From: an uncultured Rhodospirillales bacterium
GTDB taxonomy: Bacteria; Pseudomonadota; Alphaproteobacteria; Azospirillales; Azospirillaceae
Length of the DNA: 36,993 nucleotides
Direction: 5' to 3'
Assembly (NCBI GenBank): GCA_903856295.1
Contig: CAIOBP010000212.1
Span: 1-36,993 of the forward strand
A model generated the notes under the pieces. The model had not been told where the DNA came from, made no database searches, and was given only the letters and a program-made list of their open reading frames with translations. This document shows positions 1 through 36,993 of the stretch, one piece after another (position 1 is the first letter of the stretch; each line of letters opens with the position of its first letter). The translations under genes were made by a program, and so were the position numbers.

Positions 1-56
1 AAGCGGCAGGTCGGCGCCGAGGGATGGTCTCTCCGGTCTCACCAAGGGATAAATGA

Positions 57-284
57 TGGGAGGCCGGCGTCCGGCGTCAGGGGCAGGCAGCTACTTCAAC
101 GCGAGTTCTAACCCACGAGTCGCAGCGACGGGCCATATTTTCGCTCTCTCTACCCGGCCTCACATGGTTCTTTGGGCTTTCATCGACCATCATCGGCATA
201 TTCATGTTAATTGGCATTGTATCGGCAGCATTTCTTCAGATGTGGAAGCTGCCTGGGATCAACTATCTGGCAGAATTGCTATAG
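57..284 (+). pseudogene. 3' remnant of a membrane protein (no start codon)
   Basis: The frame is open from a TGA at 54-56 to a TAG at 282-284 and has no ATG or other convincing start. From about 168 it encodes a strongly hydrophobic segment (FFGLSSTIIGIFMLIGIVSA) followed by a short polar tail ending in NYLAELL. That is what the last transmembrane helix of a membrane protein looks like. It stops 6 bp before the pentapeptide gene, which has no good Shine-Dalgarno, so the two may once have been translationally coupled. DNA before about 130 is GC-rich and DNA after it is AT-rich, so the frame crosses a composition junction. The family is not recognised. A chance open frame is possible. Confidence 0.3.
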
Positions 285-290
285 AATAAA

Positions 291-1769
291 ATGTCTACAA
301 CACGAAAACCTGGTGCATTTGAAGAAGCACAGATTATGGCGGAATTGGTCCGCCATCGGTTTTATATAAAAGGTGACGCTCGTGGTGTGAGGGCCGATCT
401 ATCTTTTCGCAATATGGCCGGCCTTGTGCTGAAGGGTCAGGTTCTAACAAATATAATATTGAAGGGTACAAACCTTTCAGGTGCTGATTTCTCAGGGTGT
501 GACCTTTCTGGTGCAGATATGTTTGGCTCTGATTTAGAGGGAGCAAACCTTCAAGGCGCCAAACTGACGGGTGTTGATTTCCGTGGTGCGAACCTTACCC
601 GCGCCATCTTATCAAATTGTCATCTCCAGGGTTCAGATTTTAGTTCTGGGGGTGATTCTGGTGAAGACAATGCGCGACTAACGGAAGCAAAATTGGATCA
701 CGCAATGTTGTGTGAGGCCAATTTAAATGGCTGTGATATGTCGGGGGCAGAACTCATTGATGCAGATTTGACTGGAGCCGATCTAAGCAAAGCAGTACTT
801 GTTGGCGCTGAACTATCTGGGGCACACCTTGATAACGTAAAGCTTGATTGCACGGTCATTGAGATATCACGACTATCTCCTTCACAGCGTGATCAAGTCG
901 GTTCTCTCGAAGGAATCGTAAAGCCATGTTACTCTGACATTTCTCCGGCAGCCATTGAGCTTGCGGTTAGCAGTCATGCTGTTTGGATTGAAAGCGGGGG
1001 AAGGAAAGGTAAGCGATTAGAACTTGAAGGCGTTCGTATAGTCTCTTATTCCTTCCGCGATAGGAATTTAGCTGGGGCGCGGTTCAGAAGGTGCTCATTC
1101 AATGGGCTAGATTTGTCCAGCGTCGTGCTTGATATGGCAGATTTGACTTATGCTGATCTTACACATACAAATCTCAAAAATGCATCGCTAAAAGGAACAA
1201 CCCTCAGAGGGGCTGATCTTTCAAATTCAGATATGAGCGGAGCACGTATTGAGGCTATGGTTTTGAAAGGTAATAAGCTGTGGCCCGCCAATCTTGATGG
1301 CGCCTTGATACAAAATTCGAACCTAACAAGCGCATCATTTGCTCATTCAATCATGAATTATGCCGACCTTTCAGGAAGTGTGTTGTCCGGAGCCAATTTT
1401 ATTGATGTTGACCTTACAAAGGTCAAGAAGTTAGAAACAAATCCTAAGCAGGAATCTGCATCGTGTCGACGGATAGTAAAGCGGTACAGCATACCAAAAC
1501 TGTTCGTTAAAACTTCATATGGTGTCTACCCGACTGTAAATTGGTCAACATCAGGAATTTGCTTATCGTATGCTGGTGACCAGAGGTTTGAGCAAGATAG
1601 CAATATTAGGGTGAAAATAGTTGCCGATGGTTATCCTCCACCAAGAGACGCCGAGCTTACGGTGATTAGGGATGACCAATCTCGTGGCGTTGTGCTGTTA
1701 AAGTTTCTGAGTAGTGATGAGGGCATGATACAATATCTAAACTCCGTCGCGCCAGATGAAGTTATATAA
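291..1769 (+). CDS. Pentapeptide-repeat protein with C-terminal PilZ domain
   Basis: The 492-residue product has two blocks of A(D/N)LXX pentapeptide repeats, at about residues 45-190 and 255-375. These should fold as two right-handed quadrilateral beta-helices. Each block is preceded by a similar head motif containing H-x(n)-G-x-R/K-x-x-L (about residues 20-45 and 228-258), which suggests internal duplication. The last 100 residues look like a PilZ domain: R394-IVK-R398 fits the RxxxR arm and N417-W-S-TS-G422 fits [D/N]xSxxG, the two c-di-GMP-binding motifs of that family. No signal peptide or membrane segment is seen. The ATG at 291 lacks an obvious ribosome-binding site. The role is unknown; a c-di-GMP-responsive scaffold is an inference. 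Its 3' end overlaps the displaced tail of the convergent hemerythrin gene by 8 bp. Confidence 0.85.
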   Translation: MSTTRKPGAFEEAQIMAELVRHRFYIKGDARGVRADLSFRNMAGLVLKGQVLTNIILKGTNLSGADFSGCDLSGADMFGSDLEGANLQGAKLTGVDFRGANLTRAILSNCHLQGSDFSSGGDSGEDNARLTEAKLDHAMLCEANLNGCDMSGAELIDADLTGADLSKAVLVGAELSGAHLDNVKLDCTVIEISRLSPSQRDQVGSLEGIVKPCYSDISPAAIELAVSSHAVWIESGGRKGKRLELEGVRIVSYSFRDRNLAGARFRRCSFNGLDLSSVVLDMADLTYADLTHTNLKNASLKGTTLRGADLSNSDMSGARIEAMVLKGNKLWPANLDGALIQNSNLTSASFAHSIMNYADLSGSVLSGANFIDVDLTKVKKLETNPKQESASCRRIVKRYSIPKLFVKTSYGVYPTVNWSTSGICLSYAGDQRFEQDSNIRVKIVADGYPPPRDAELTVIRDDQSRGVVLLKFLSSDEGMIQYLNSVAPDEVI

Positions 1770-1896
1770 TCACTTCTGCCGATGGTAGCGCGTCGCATTG
1801 ATGGGGGCTTCCCGCTTTCGCTTTCATCCGTCTCTCATAATAATCACCAAAATACCGATCTGATATAAGTATATGCCCTGAAAGCCATGCACCAAT
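1762..1896 (-). pseudogene. Out-of-frame C-terminal tail of the hemerythrin gene
   Basis: In the -1 frame relative to the upstream hemerythrin frame, this stretch encodes IGAWLSGHILISD and then RYFGDYYERRMKAKAG, ending at a TAA at 1764-1762. The WLxxHIxxxDxxY pattern is the standard last helix of bacteriohemerythrins and provides the sixth and seventh iron ligands. Joining it to residue 171 of the upstream frame gives a complete protein of about 215 residues. The junction is U UUU UUA in the zero frame, which matches the X XXY YYZ form of a -1 slippery site. A single T deletion in the homopolymer explains it equally well. Confidence 0.7.
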
Positions 1897-2411
1897 AAAA
1901 AAATCAGTTGTTCAAAGTCTGCGCGTTCACCTTCTATTTCATCAGATAGAGTAAGGATGTCGTGCATAAACTGGTCGTGCTGGCATATATGGCGAAATAG
2001 TCCTGGGTAATTTTCATGAAACATAATCTCCTCTTCTTCAGCAAAGTGCTCGCTAAATGTGACAATCAGTGGCTTCAATCGTTCTGCGAGTATCCTTGCT
2101 CTTGATCGGCTGCGACGAAACTTTGTAGCATCATTAACAAGGGTATTGTAAGCCATCATAATAATTTTATGTTTTGTATCAACGACAGAAATGCCAATCG
2201 TATAACTATCATCAAAGTTGATTGATGCAATGTCCAGCAGTCGGCGATTATGTGTGGGTTGGATAACCGCCTTTGATGTTTTCCATATTGCTTTTCTCTC
2301 AGCATTCTGCTTGCGCTCTTGAATTTTATGTAAAATTTGATTCACAGGCGCCTGAAAAAGTCGAACTAATCGACTAACCATCCTGCGGTGAATGCTTCCT
2401 GACTCAGCCAT
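1824..2411 (-). CDS. Bacteriohemerythrin, C-terminus frameshifted
   Basis: As read, this gives 195 residues: a basic extension of about 60 residues, then a bacteriohemerythrin domain that binds O2 at a di-iron centre. Ligands visible are H81, H122, E126, H141 and H145. The usual last pair, HxxxxD, is missing in this frame (H175 is followed by I180), and the protein ends in an untypical hydrophobic tail. Stepping back one base at the T7 run (plus-strand A7, 1897-1903) restores a canonical tail, WLSGHILISDRYFGDYY, which supplies the missing His and Asp; see 1762-1896. The gene is therefore a recent frameshift, a sequencing indel, or uses -1 slippage. The ATG at 2411 has a GAGG 7 nt upstream, and a perfect TATAAT lies at 2448-2453 on this strand, though with no good -35. 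Confidence 0.8.
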   Translation of the reverse strand: MAESGSIHRRMVSRLVRLFQAPVNQILHKIQERKQNAERKAIWKTSKAVIQPTHNRRLLDIASINFDDSYTIGISVVDTKHKIIMMAYNTLVNDATKFRRSRSRARILAERLKPLIVTFSEHFAEEEEIMFHENYPGLFRHICQHDQFMHDILTLSDEIEGERADFEQLIFLLVHGFQGIYLYQIGILVIIMRDG

Positions 2412-2651
2412 CGCATACCTCGCCTACTAATGAAAATTGATGTGCCTATTATATTCTGGAGTCAGTAACACATCATGCACTTTTGCAGCTGTCAAAACGC
2501 AATCGACTTGACCCTTCGGATTTCCCAATAAAACTGGACCGCCCAAACCTTTAACTCATGAGCAATGATCAAGAGAATTCCGACTAATAGAAATTAAACC
2601 GAAACTGTGTTGTTACCGATATATTCAGAATTTTTTGAATGCGGCGTGATA

Positions 2652-3101
2652 TCATGCAGCGGCCGATTTGAGTAGGCAAAGGGGATTGTTGTAATCACGT
2701 ATAGATTTCTTGAGGTAGGCACCAAATGAATGGTCGCGAGATTTGACGTGAGATGCCATCCAGCGTATAAGAAACATAAGCAGGTCGTTTCCAACCTCAA
2801 CGCCACGCTCAAAGTCAGCAATCATTATTGTCAGGCGGTCAATGAATGCCCAGTGCTCTATAATGTGCTGATCCCTCTCTTTATATCGGCATAAGTTCAT
2901 AAACTTCTCTTCAATGAGAAATCCGGCTCCGGCATAATCAGCGAGTTCACAAAGAATGTTTGAAACTGAGTCGCAATCTGCACCACGGTTTACGACGAGA
3001 TGAAGTCGGTTGATCAGGGATATCAGCTTCTGATGGGTTTCATCGATAGGGCCACCATCGACGGACATCGCTTCAGTCCAATTGACAAGCTTGAATTCCA
3101 T
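2652..3101 (-). CDS. Bacteriohemerythrin paralogue lacking one His ligand
   Basis: The 149-residue product is a single-domain bacteriohemerythrin starting MEFKLVNW, close to the usual family N-terminus. Di-iron ligands present are H23, E64, H79, H83, H118 and D123 (HVKSRD). The position that is normally the His of the HFxxEE motif is Gly60 (AGFLIEE), so one of the seven ligands is missing. Iron binding may be altered or lost. The ATG at 3101 is preferred over a TTG at 3158 because it has an AGGTG 5 nt upstream and gives the family-like N-terminus. It lies 240 bp upstream of the other hemerythrin on the same strand; low identity outside the motifs suggests they are not a recent duplication. 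Confidence 0.82.
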   Translation of the reverse strand: MEFKLVNWTEAMSVDGGPIDETHQKLISLINRLHLVVNRGADCDSVSNILCELADYAGAGFLIEEKFMNLCRYKERDQHIIEHWAFIDRLTIMIADFERGVEVGNDLLMFLIRWMASHVKSRDHSFGAYLKKSIRDYNNPLCLLKSAAA

Positions 3102-3501
3102 GGCGCACCTGTCCCGTTCAGCGGCTTGCTGTTGGTGCAGGGATTCTAGCAGCGCCAAATTTCGTTGGGATCAAGCTGATGTGCCGAACTTTCATTTGAT
3201 TCTGGGAAAGTGTTGCGTGAATACAACCTATTGAGATCGCAGATAGATGGGAATCTAATGAACGGGATTGAGTGAGGGGGAGCGATATTGGTGGCCGTGC
3301 GGTTAAGTCACCCCCTCATGCTGTTCCGACCTTGAAATGGTATCTGATAAGAATTTTGGCGGCATTTGCAGCGGCCATAACCTCGGGTATCGCTTCGCAA
3401 ACTTCGCGAAATTATAATGATCTTCGCGATTTATGCTACGATAACTCATCTCGCGAATCGTAGCATAACGTGTAGCATAAGAAAAATCTGAGAGCAACCC
3501 A
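3102..3501. other. Intergenic region with inverted repeats
   Basis: This is 400 bp between the divergent hemerythrin and rluE genes. It is AT-rich and holds no convincing gene. It contains several TTCGCGA-like palindromes (about 3403-3460) and a perfect 12-bp inverted repeat described separately. Promoters for both flanking genes must lie here, but none is clear. Confidence 0.5.
3431..3468. repeat. Perfect 12-bp inverted repeat, 14-nt loop
   Basis: TTATGCTACGAT (3431-3442) is repeated in exact inverse complement as ATCGTAGCATAA (3457-3468). A further partial copy, GTAGCATAA, follows at 3472-3480. It lies 34 bp before the rluE start and at the edge of the AT-rich segment. It could be an operator for a dimeric regulator, an RNA hairpin in the rluE leader, or the scar of an integration site. 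Confidence 0.6.
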
Positions 3502-14128: not shown

Positions 14129-14623
14129 TCAGATGATCATCACGGTATCGCGGTCGCAGACGGCGAGCAGGGTCAGCAGGTCGGGCAGGGCCAGGGCGAC
14201 GCAGCCCTCGGTGGGCAGATAGCCCGGCTTGGCCACGTGGAGGAAGATGGCGCTGCCCAGGCCGGGGACCGGCGGGTCGTCATTGTGCCCCAGCACCACC
14301 ACCACATCGTAGAGACCGTCGTCGCGCCAGAGCTTTTCATGACTGGTGGCGCAGGGCAGGGGCACCGGGCGGTTGTAGCGGGGATCGGCCGGGTCGTCGC
14401 ACCAGCCATCCTCGGGGGCGATCGGACTCGCGGGCAGGCCGCTCACCGGTGGAGCAGGCAAGCGGTCGGGACGGTAGAGCGCCCGGCGCAGAACGAAGCG
14501 GCCGCTGGGGGTGGCGCCGTCGCCTTCCCGCTTGTCGGCGCGGATGCCCCCCCGCCCGAGGGCGCAGCGGCACTGCCCGCCATCCCAGCTCAGCACCCCC
14601 TCGGCGCGAACCCGAATGTCCAT
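14129..14623 (-). CDS. L,D-transpeptidase (YkuD domain)
   Basis: The 164-residue product is a compact YkuD-type L,D-transpeptidase, the family that makes 3-3 peptidoglycan crosslinks or attaches proteins to the wall. Visible motifs are GDGATPSGRF (about 37-46), HNDDPPVPGLGSAIFLH and the catalytic-Cys motif PTEGCVAL (about 140-147). No clear signal peptide is present, which is common in this short subfamily. The ATG at 14623 follows GAGGA; the Shine-Dalgarno overlaps the stop codon of the SPOR-protein gene 13 bp upstream. It is the last gene of a leftward envelope group and is convergent with the mmsF-like gene. Confidence 0.85.
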   Translation of the reverse strand: MDIRVRAEGVLSWDGGQCRCALGRGGIRADKREGDGATPSGRFVLRRALYRPDRLPAPPVSGLPASPIAPEDGWCDDPADPRYNRPVPLPCATSHEKLWRDDGLYDVVVVLGHNDDPPVPGLGSAIFLHVAKPGYLPTEGCVALALPDLLTLLAVCDRDTVMII

Positions 14624-14636
14624 CGGCCGATTTTCC

Positions 14637-15392
14637 TCAGGAGGTCTCGCGGCCGGCGGGCAACGGGTGGCAATACTGGCTGTGGCGGGCCTTTCTGATC
14701 GCCTCGCAGGCCTTCTCGGCGGCCTGCCGGCTGTCGAACGATCCGGCGAACAGGCGCGTGAACCGGCCCTTGCCGGGAACGTCGACCGCCACCGTGCTGG
14801 ATTGGAGGGCGCCAAGCACTGTTGGGAAGGCCTTTTGCAGATCGGTCCAGGCCTGACCGACCAGATGTTCGTCGCGGTATGAGTCGAGATGGATGCGGTA
14901 GGCGCCGGCACCAGCGGCGGCCGTCTGCGCCGCCGCTGGTGCCGGGGTGTGGGGCTTCTTGATCTCGGCGGCCGGGGTGTGCGCGACCTCGATGCCGCGT
15001 GTCCGGACATGGGGCGCCGGCTTCTTGACGTCGGCGGCGGGAGCCTGGGCGGTGGGCGCTTGGGCGGTCTCGATGGTGTGGGGCCGGGGCGCCGGCTTGT
15101 CGCGGGCGGCGGCGGTTCCGGGGGCGAGCACCCAGCCGGACTCCCGTTCCGCGCCGGTCAGCGGCTCACCGGTAATCGGGTTGGTGGTGGCGCCGGTGCC
15201 GACCCAGATCCGCGGCTGCCCGGAGTTGGCGGCGGCGGCTTTGGCCGGCGGCGGCGTCACGGCCTGGACCACCGGCACCACTGCGGCCGGGTCATGGGGC
15301 ATGGCGGCGGGCGCGCCGCCGGCAAGGTAATAACCCGAGGCGGTGGAGGTGCCGAGGATGCTGAGCGCCGTTCCGACAAATCTGAAACTCAT
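14637..15392 (-). CDS. SPOR-domain protein
   Basis: The 251-residue product has a hydrophobic N-terminus (about 5-28) that may be a signal peptide or anchor, a long Ala/Pro-rich linker with repeated Ala-Pro-Thr and Lys-Lys-Pro-His patterns (about 40-165), and a C-terminal SPOR-like domain (about 165-245; AYRIHLDSY, then GRFTRLFAGSFDSRQAAEKAC). SPOR domains bind denuded septal peptidoglycan. GGAGA precedes the ATG at 15392 by about 10 nt. It lies between the lipoprotein (12 bp upstream) and the L,D-transpeptidase (13 bp downstream), which supports a wall-related role. Confidence 0.75.
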   Translation of the reverse strand: MSFRFVGTALSILGTSTASGYYLAGGAPAAMPHDPAAVVPVVQAVTPPPAKAAAANSGQPRIWVGTGATTNPITGEPLTGAERESGWVLAPGTAAARDKPAPRPHTIETAQAPTAQAPAADVKKPAPHVRTRGIEVAHTPAAEIKKPHTPAPAAAQTAAAGAGAYRIHLDSYRDEHLVGQAWTDLQKAFPTVLGALQSSTVAVDVPGKGRFTRLFAGSFDSRQAAEKACEAIRKARHSQYCHPLPAGRETS

Positions 15393-36857: not shown

Positions 36858-36993
36858 GGCCGTGCAAGTTTTTTTCTGTAAATTCGCGCAGAAGACGACT
36901 TGATTCGAGGCGGGTAGTTACGCCGCCAGATTTATGTATATCTTACCAGTCATCCAGTCCTCATCGACCTCTGCGAGCAATGCTGAAACCAAG
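36858..36993 (-). mobile_element. IS256-type element, terminal fragment
   Basis: The segment contains CAAGTTTTTTTCTGTAAATT (36865-36884), which resembles the terminal inverted repeats of IS256-family elements as I recall them (a GTCAA-T run-CTGTAAATT pattern). Behind it lies the 3' end of a likely transposase frame. The REP-like homology stops at 36857, consistent with an insertion boundary there. The other end lies beyond the window. Confidence 0.45.
36918..36992 (-). CDS. Transposase C-terminus, partial (IS256-like)
   Basis: On the minus strand the window edge opens into LVSALLAEVDEDWMTGKIY followed by INLAA and a TAA at 36920-36918. The pattern L.SALL.E...W.TG.IYIN is typical of the C-terminus of IS256-family transposases. 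Only 24 residues are visible, so the assignment rests on a short match plus the terminal-repeat-like sequence 35-55 bp further on. Confidence 0.5.
   Translation of the reverse strand: MVSALLAEVDEDWMTGKIYINLAA

Follow-up and report, generated by a model that had tools for sequence, protein, structure and literature searches.

A one-base frame break in a T run of a bacteriohemerythrin gene: a probable recent pseudogene bearing a U UUU UUA heptamer

A bacteriohemerythrin gene divided between two frames

The window (the whole 36,993-nt stretch of DNA analysed, from an uncultured Rhodospirillales bacterium) begins with a low-GC island (positions 1..3500; GC 0.41–0.50 versus ~0.67 elsewhere in the window) that holds two hemerythrin genes and a gene encoding a pentapeptide-repeat protein. 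The pentapeptide-repeat gene (291-1769, plus strand; 492 aa) is convergent with the hemerythrin gene under study; a stretch 66% identical to its product is encoded on contig C220 of a sister-species genome (G003), and the C-terminal ~100 aa appear PilZ-like by eye, with no Pfam confirmation. The second hemerythrin gene, located upstream (2652..3158, minus strand), is intact, with its first helix-B His ligand replaced (GAGFLIEE). Because the G003 ortholog (L064, 745-1233) carries the same replacement, we interpret this gene as a conserved variant minus one ligand and not as a product of decay. Both contig termini (window 1-135 and 36858-36993) are ends of different high-copy repeats, the one at 1..135 belonging to a multi-copy repeat that recurs at >30 further sites of the genome, almost always at contig ends. 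A third repeat (ISL3) occurs 37 times, and the assembly breaks at these repeats.

The bacteriohemerythrin gene of interest lies on the minus strand and is divided between two frames. Its zero-frame ORF (1824..2411, minus strand; ATG at 2411, TGA at 1824-1826) encodes 195 aa and is preceded, 6 nt before the ATG, by a Shine-Dalgarno-like GGCGAGG (2418..2424, minus strand) as read from the sequence. The zero-frame product ends in an unrelated 25-residue tail, without the last two metal ligands. An ORF in the -1 frame (1762..1911, minus strand; stop TAA at 1762-1764; open over 1765-1911, 47 open codons) supplies helix D (WLSGHILISDRYFGDYY) and the natural C-terminus; its translation, FIGAWLSGHILISDRYFGDYY, is the helix D end of a hemerythrin, and the end of this frame overlaps the end of the convergent pentapeptide gene by 8 nt. 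The place of the frame change is a T7 run (1897..1903, minus strand; A7 on the window strand), where the heptamer T TTT TTA (U UUU UUA in the transcript; 1896..1902, minus strand) sits in phase inside ATT TTT TTA. The coordinates, the frame and the T7 run proposed in the initial annotation (1897-1903) were thus confirmed in the sequence, as was its claim of a heptamer of the X XXY YYZ form, present at 1902-1896 in the required phase. Apart from the T run, nothing in the gene is damaged: the start codon, the Shine-Dalgarno-like element, the -1 frame and, once read through, the ligands are all in place.

Homology and iron ligands across the join

To describe the relation of the two frames to the hemerythrin family, profile scores of the zero-frame and read-through proteins were compared. 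Both proteins score above the curated cut-offs of the two bacteriohemerythrin domain models, with read-through raising the PF01814 match from 28.0 to 36.4 bits (cut-off 25.3) and the TIGR02481 match from 57.8 to 77.6 bits (cut-off 51.75), in agreement with the hemerythrin identity first assigned to the gene. A third model, NF033749, stays under its cut-off of 84 either way (57.4 bits for the zero frame, 74.3 read through). The -1 fragment by itself aligns, at 14.4 bits, with the final 22 positions of a local hemerythrin profile that was seeded with the read-through protein. Because the PF01814 and TIGR02481 scores both rise on read-through, the junction of the zero frame and the -1 frame is, judged by homology, a real homologous join and more than chance. 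At the level of residues, the joined protein (..LIFFIGAWLSGHILISD.., with LIFFIGAWLSGH as the junction stretch) aligns with ..LFFVGSWWSGHVLISD.. of the intact G003 relative in a gap-free block, which in an intact relative from genome G001 reads LAFIGQWIRGHILITD. Alignment to these intact relatives confines the frame change to ~11 nt, comprising the T run and the bases next to it.

Ligand positions, checked against DcrH and bacteriohemerythrin matches, are complete in the read-through protein, which carries 7/7 ligands (H81, H122, E126, H141, H145, H187 and D192 in joined-protein numbering). H187 and D192 are absent from the zero-frame product, which consequently falls short of the seven-ligand set (5 His, Glu, Asp), and are restored by the -1 frame, as the initial annotation had stated of the last two iron ligands. 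After read-through, the protein is like the bacteriohemerythrin/hemerythrin HHE domain (PF01814, TIGR02481) both in domain order and in its 7/7 ligands, with DcrH-Hr (2awc, 2avk) and the bacteriohemerythrin 4xpx as the best solved relatives. Unlike that domain, the zero frame of this gene is without helix D and two ligands; the gene also has an N-terminal extension of ~60 aa, common to the G003 relative. By sequence, then, the gene belongs to the hemerythrin family, but its zero-frame product fails the ligand definition.

The T run lies over helix D phenylalanine codons

The nearest relative, G003:C146 of a sister species, is intact and shares 35% identity over residues 13-192, N-terminal extension included. 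Its gene encodes the matching Phe-Phe as TTC TTC in a single frame, with no heptamer at that point, a comparison that speaks against a programmed site. The most informative control is a paralog, C1:10094-10414, encoded in this same genome; it is likewise intact and has T7 across the corresponding Phe-Phe codons (GCT TTT TTT GAA CAG TGG CTC TCC GGC CAC; in-phase U UUU UUU), which indicates that the T run arises from helix D Phe codons. Since ATT TTT TTT ATT minus one T necessarily leaves ATT TTT TTA, the U UUU UUA heptamer can be understood as a consequence of the lesion; it follows automatically from that lesion and is therefore not independent evidence for programming. Searches of genome_contigs and viral_contigs found no close relatives, and plasmid records yielded only distant hemerythrins, mostly from Azospirillum, at ~26–31% identity among the matches listed.

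Weighing programmed frameshifting, slippage and assembly error

The initial annotation favoured programmed -1 frameshifting by the ribosome at U UUU UUA, with a truncated hemerythrin and a full-length one as its products, a reading that we now consider very unlikely. In its favour, the heptamer stands in the correct phase, the -1 frame is homologous to hemerythrins, and in E. coli 61% of heptamers proved prone to shift with no stimulator present, at rates 2.1 to 10 times a no-motif background that averages 0.055% (PMC4066793). Against it, no SD-like stimulator was found 6–17 nt upstream of the heptamer, the range used (PMC4066793), the sole SD-like element, AGGTG, lying 26 nt from the motif. 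Downstream folding was no stronger than that of shuffled sequence (z between -1.35 and +0.84 over 15 windows; z = -0.12 for a 93-nt segment), giving no stem-loop of note under a pseudoknot-free folding model. The site is also not conserved in the nearest relative; because this intact G003 relative carries an in-phase TTTTTTA elsewhere without a frame change, U UUU UUA alone means little. Among 82 family genomes, in which close orthologs were few, no frame break was seen at the same site. The gene thus resembles known -1 programmed frameshift genes (dnaX, the IS3/IS911 type, HIV-like U UUU UUA) in its in-phase X XXY YYZ motif, and differs from them in that no stimulators were found, the site is not conserved and the gene, a redundant one, changes frame close to its 3′ end. 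As slippage without stimulators reaches at most ~10 times the no-motif level (PMC4066793), traces of full-length protein would not in themselves prove programming. That the bare heptamer sets a regulated ratio of iron-binding and iron-less forms is likewise very unlikely. A literature search on frameshifted bacteriohemerythrins returned nothing relevant, such recoding not being described for hemerythrins in the papers searched; if programmed, the gene would found a new recoded family. Overall, the identity, ligands, frame and heptamer given in the initial annotation stood and its preference for a programmed site did not; the indel that it had already named as the alternative accords better with these observations.

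The main rival to a genuine lesion is that the gene is intact and that the draft assembly, of 255 contigs, misses one base of its T run, an explanation we regard as rather unlikely though deserving of weight. The remainder of the hemerythrin gene is undamaged, and homopolymer indels are the most frequent kind of error in sequencing and assembly; however, T7 is not a long run for current short-read chemistry, and other 7-base runs of the assembly sit in open genes, including the T7 of the C1 hemerythrin and a C7 in the gene at 14132-15157, within its YkuD domain. A genome-wide look at T7/A7 runs for breaks returned long frames of which most were not tied to known genes. Slippage of RNA polymerase or of replication in the T run, producing transcript heterogeneity or on/off phase variation, is improbable. 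Bacterial slippage at A or T runs does restore frames, as described for Shigella mxiE and Citrobacter tssM1 (PMC1088944, PMC4256274), and amounts in tssM1 to 20–25% at A11 (PMC4256274). The present gene shares with these and with Thermus dnaX (A9) a homopolymer at the frame change, but its run is only 7, where the bacterial examples whose length is stated in the cited passages have 9 (Thermus dnaX) and 11 (tssM1) (PMC1088944, PMC4256274), and it shows no sign that two products are needed. Nor would hemerythrins be expected among the surface antigens of the usual phase-variable kind.

A probable recent pseudogene

We consider the bacteriohemerythrin gene to be probably a recent pseudogene, created by the loss of one base in the T run. 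Under this explanation, a single base would have dropped out where helix D begins, in the T run that encodes Phe-Phe, and translation initiated at the usual ATG would yield the 195-aa protein, which carries the unrelated tail but neither the final His nor the final Asp ligand. Lacking these residues, the zero-frame product should form no di-iron site. Ribosomal or RNA-polymerase slippage may still give traces of the full-length protein, without selection for them. The lesion is isolated and the frame is broken relative to intact homologs, the pattern of an indel pseudogene. Support comes from the intact G003 relative with its TTC TTC, from the intact C1 paralog with its T7, from the size and decay of the family, and from the setting of the gene in a low-GC island next to the end of a repeat. 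A study of 1106 genomes assigns isolated frame breaks that BLASTp and Pfam confirm either to sequencing error or to indel pseudogenes (PMC3711429), and the present gene is like the GeneTack indel pseudogenes and singletons described there in its isolated, homology- and Pfam-confirmed break near the 3′ end, with no notable difference. A misread functional gene or a recoded gene would have the same appearance, all but the T run being intact.

Redundancy and decay in the hemerythrin family

The genome that carries this gene (4.0 Mb) contains 43 PF01814 matches, and four genus mates (sister species) have 30–40 each. Hemerythrin expansion is strong in the genus, with many members fused into larger proteins of 690–950 aa. 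In this genome, the family is redundant and partly decayed. Three of its further hemerythrins (C114, C177 and C142) are cut by different high-copy repeats of 32–37 copies: that on C114 by the repeat also found at the window's left end, that on C177 by the right-terminal repeat of the window (32 exact copies), and that on C142 by the third repeat (37 copies), which ends in an ISL3 transposase C-terminus. The ISL3 match scores 21.3 bits against a curated cut-off of 23; it falls just short since no more than the final 27 profile positions lie on the contig.

Broken hemerythrins also occur in sister species. In two of them, G002:C32 and G001:C15, the frame shifts close to the C-terminus, at sequences that are unrelated, with profile gains on read-through (82 to 104 bits and 60 to 76 bits, respectively) that are illustrative, since the profile was built from the loci compared here and seeded with the read-through protein. 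The former (L053, 616-1220, minus strand) is a hemerythrin of a tandem pair with its frame change before helix D and no T run; considered as a conserved recoding site, it was rejected, being a different gene with neither a T run nor a matching heptamer. A further hemerythrin, G002:C82, is interrupted by an internal TAA.

When a T run over Phe codons loses one base, a slippery heptamer of textbook form results automatically, which is a trap in hunts for recoding that start from raw sequence. As a pseudogene, the locus would carry little weight except as an example of turnover in a hemerythrin family that has expanded strongly.
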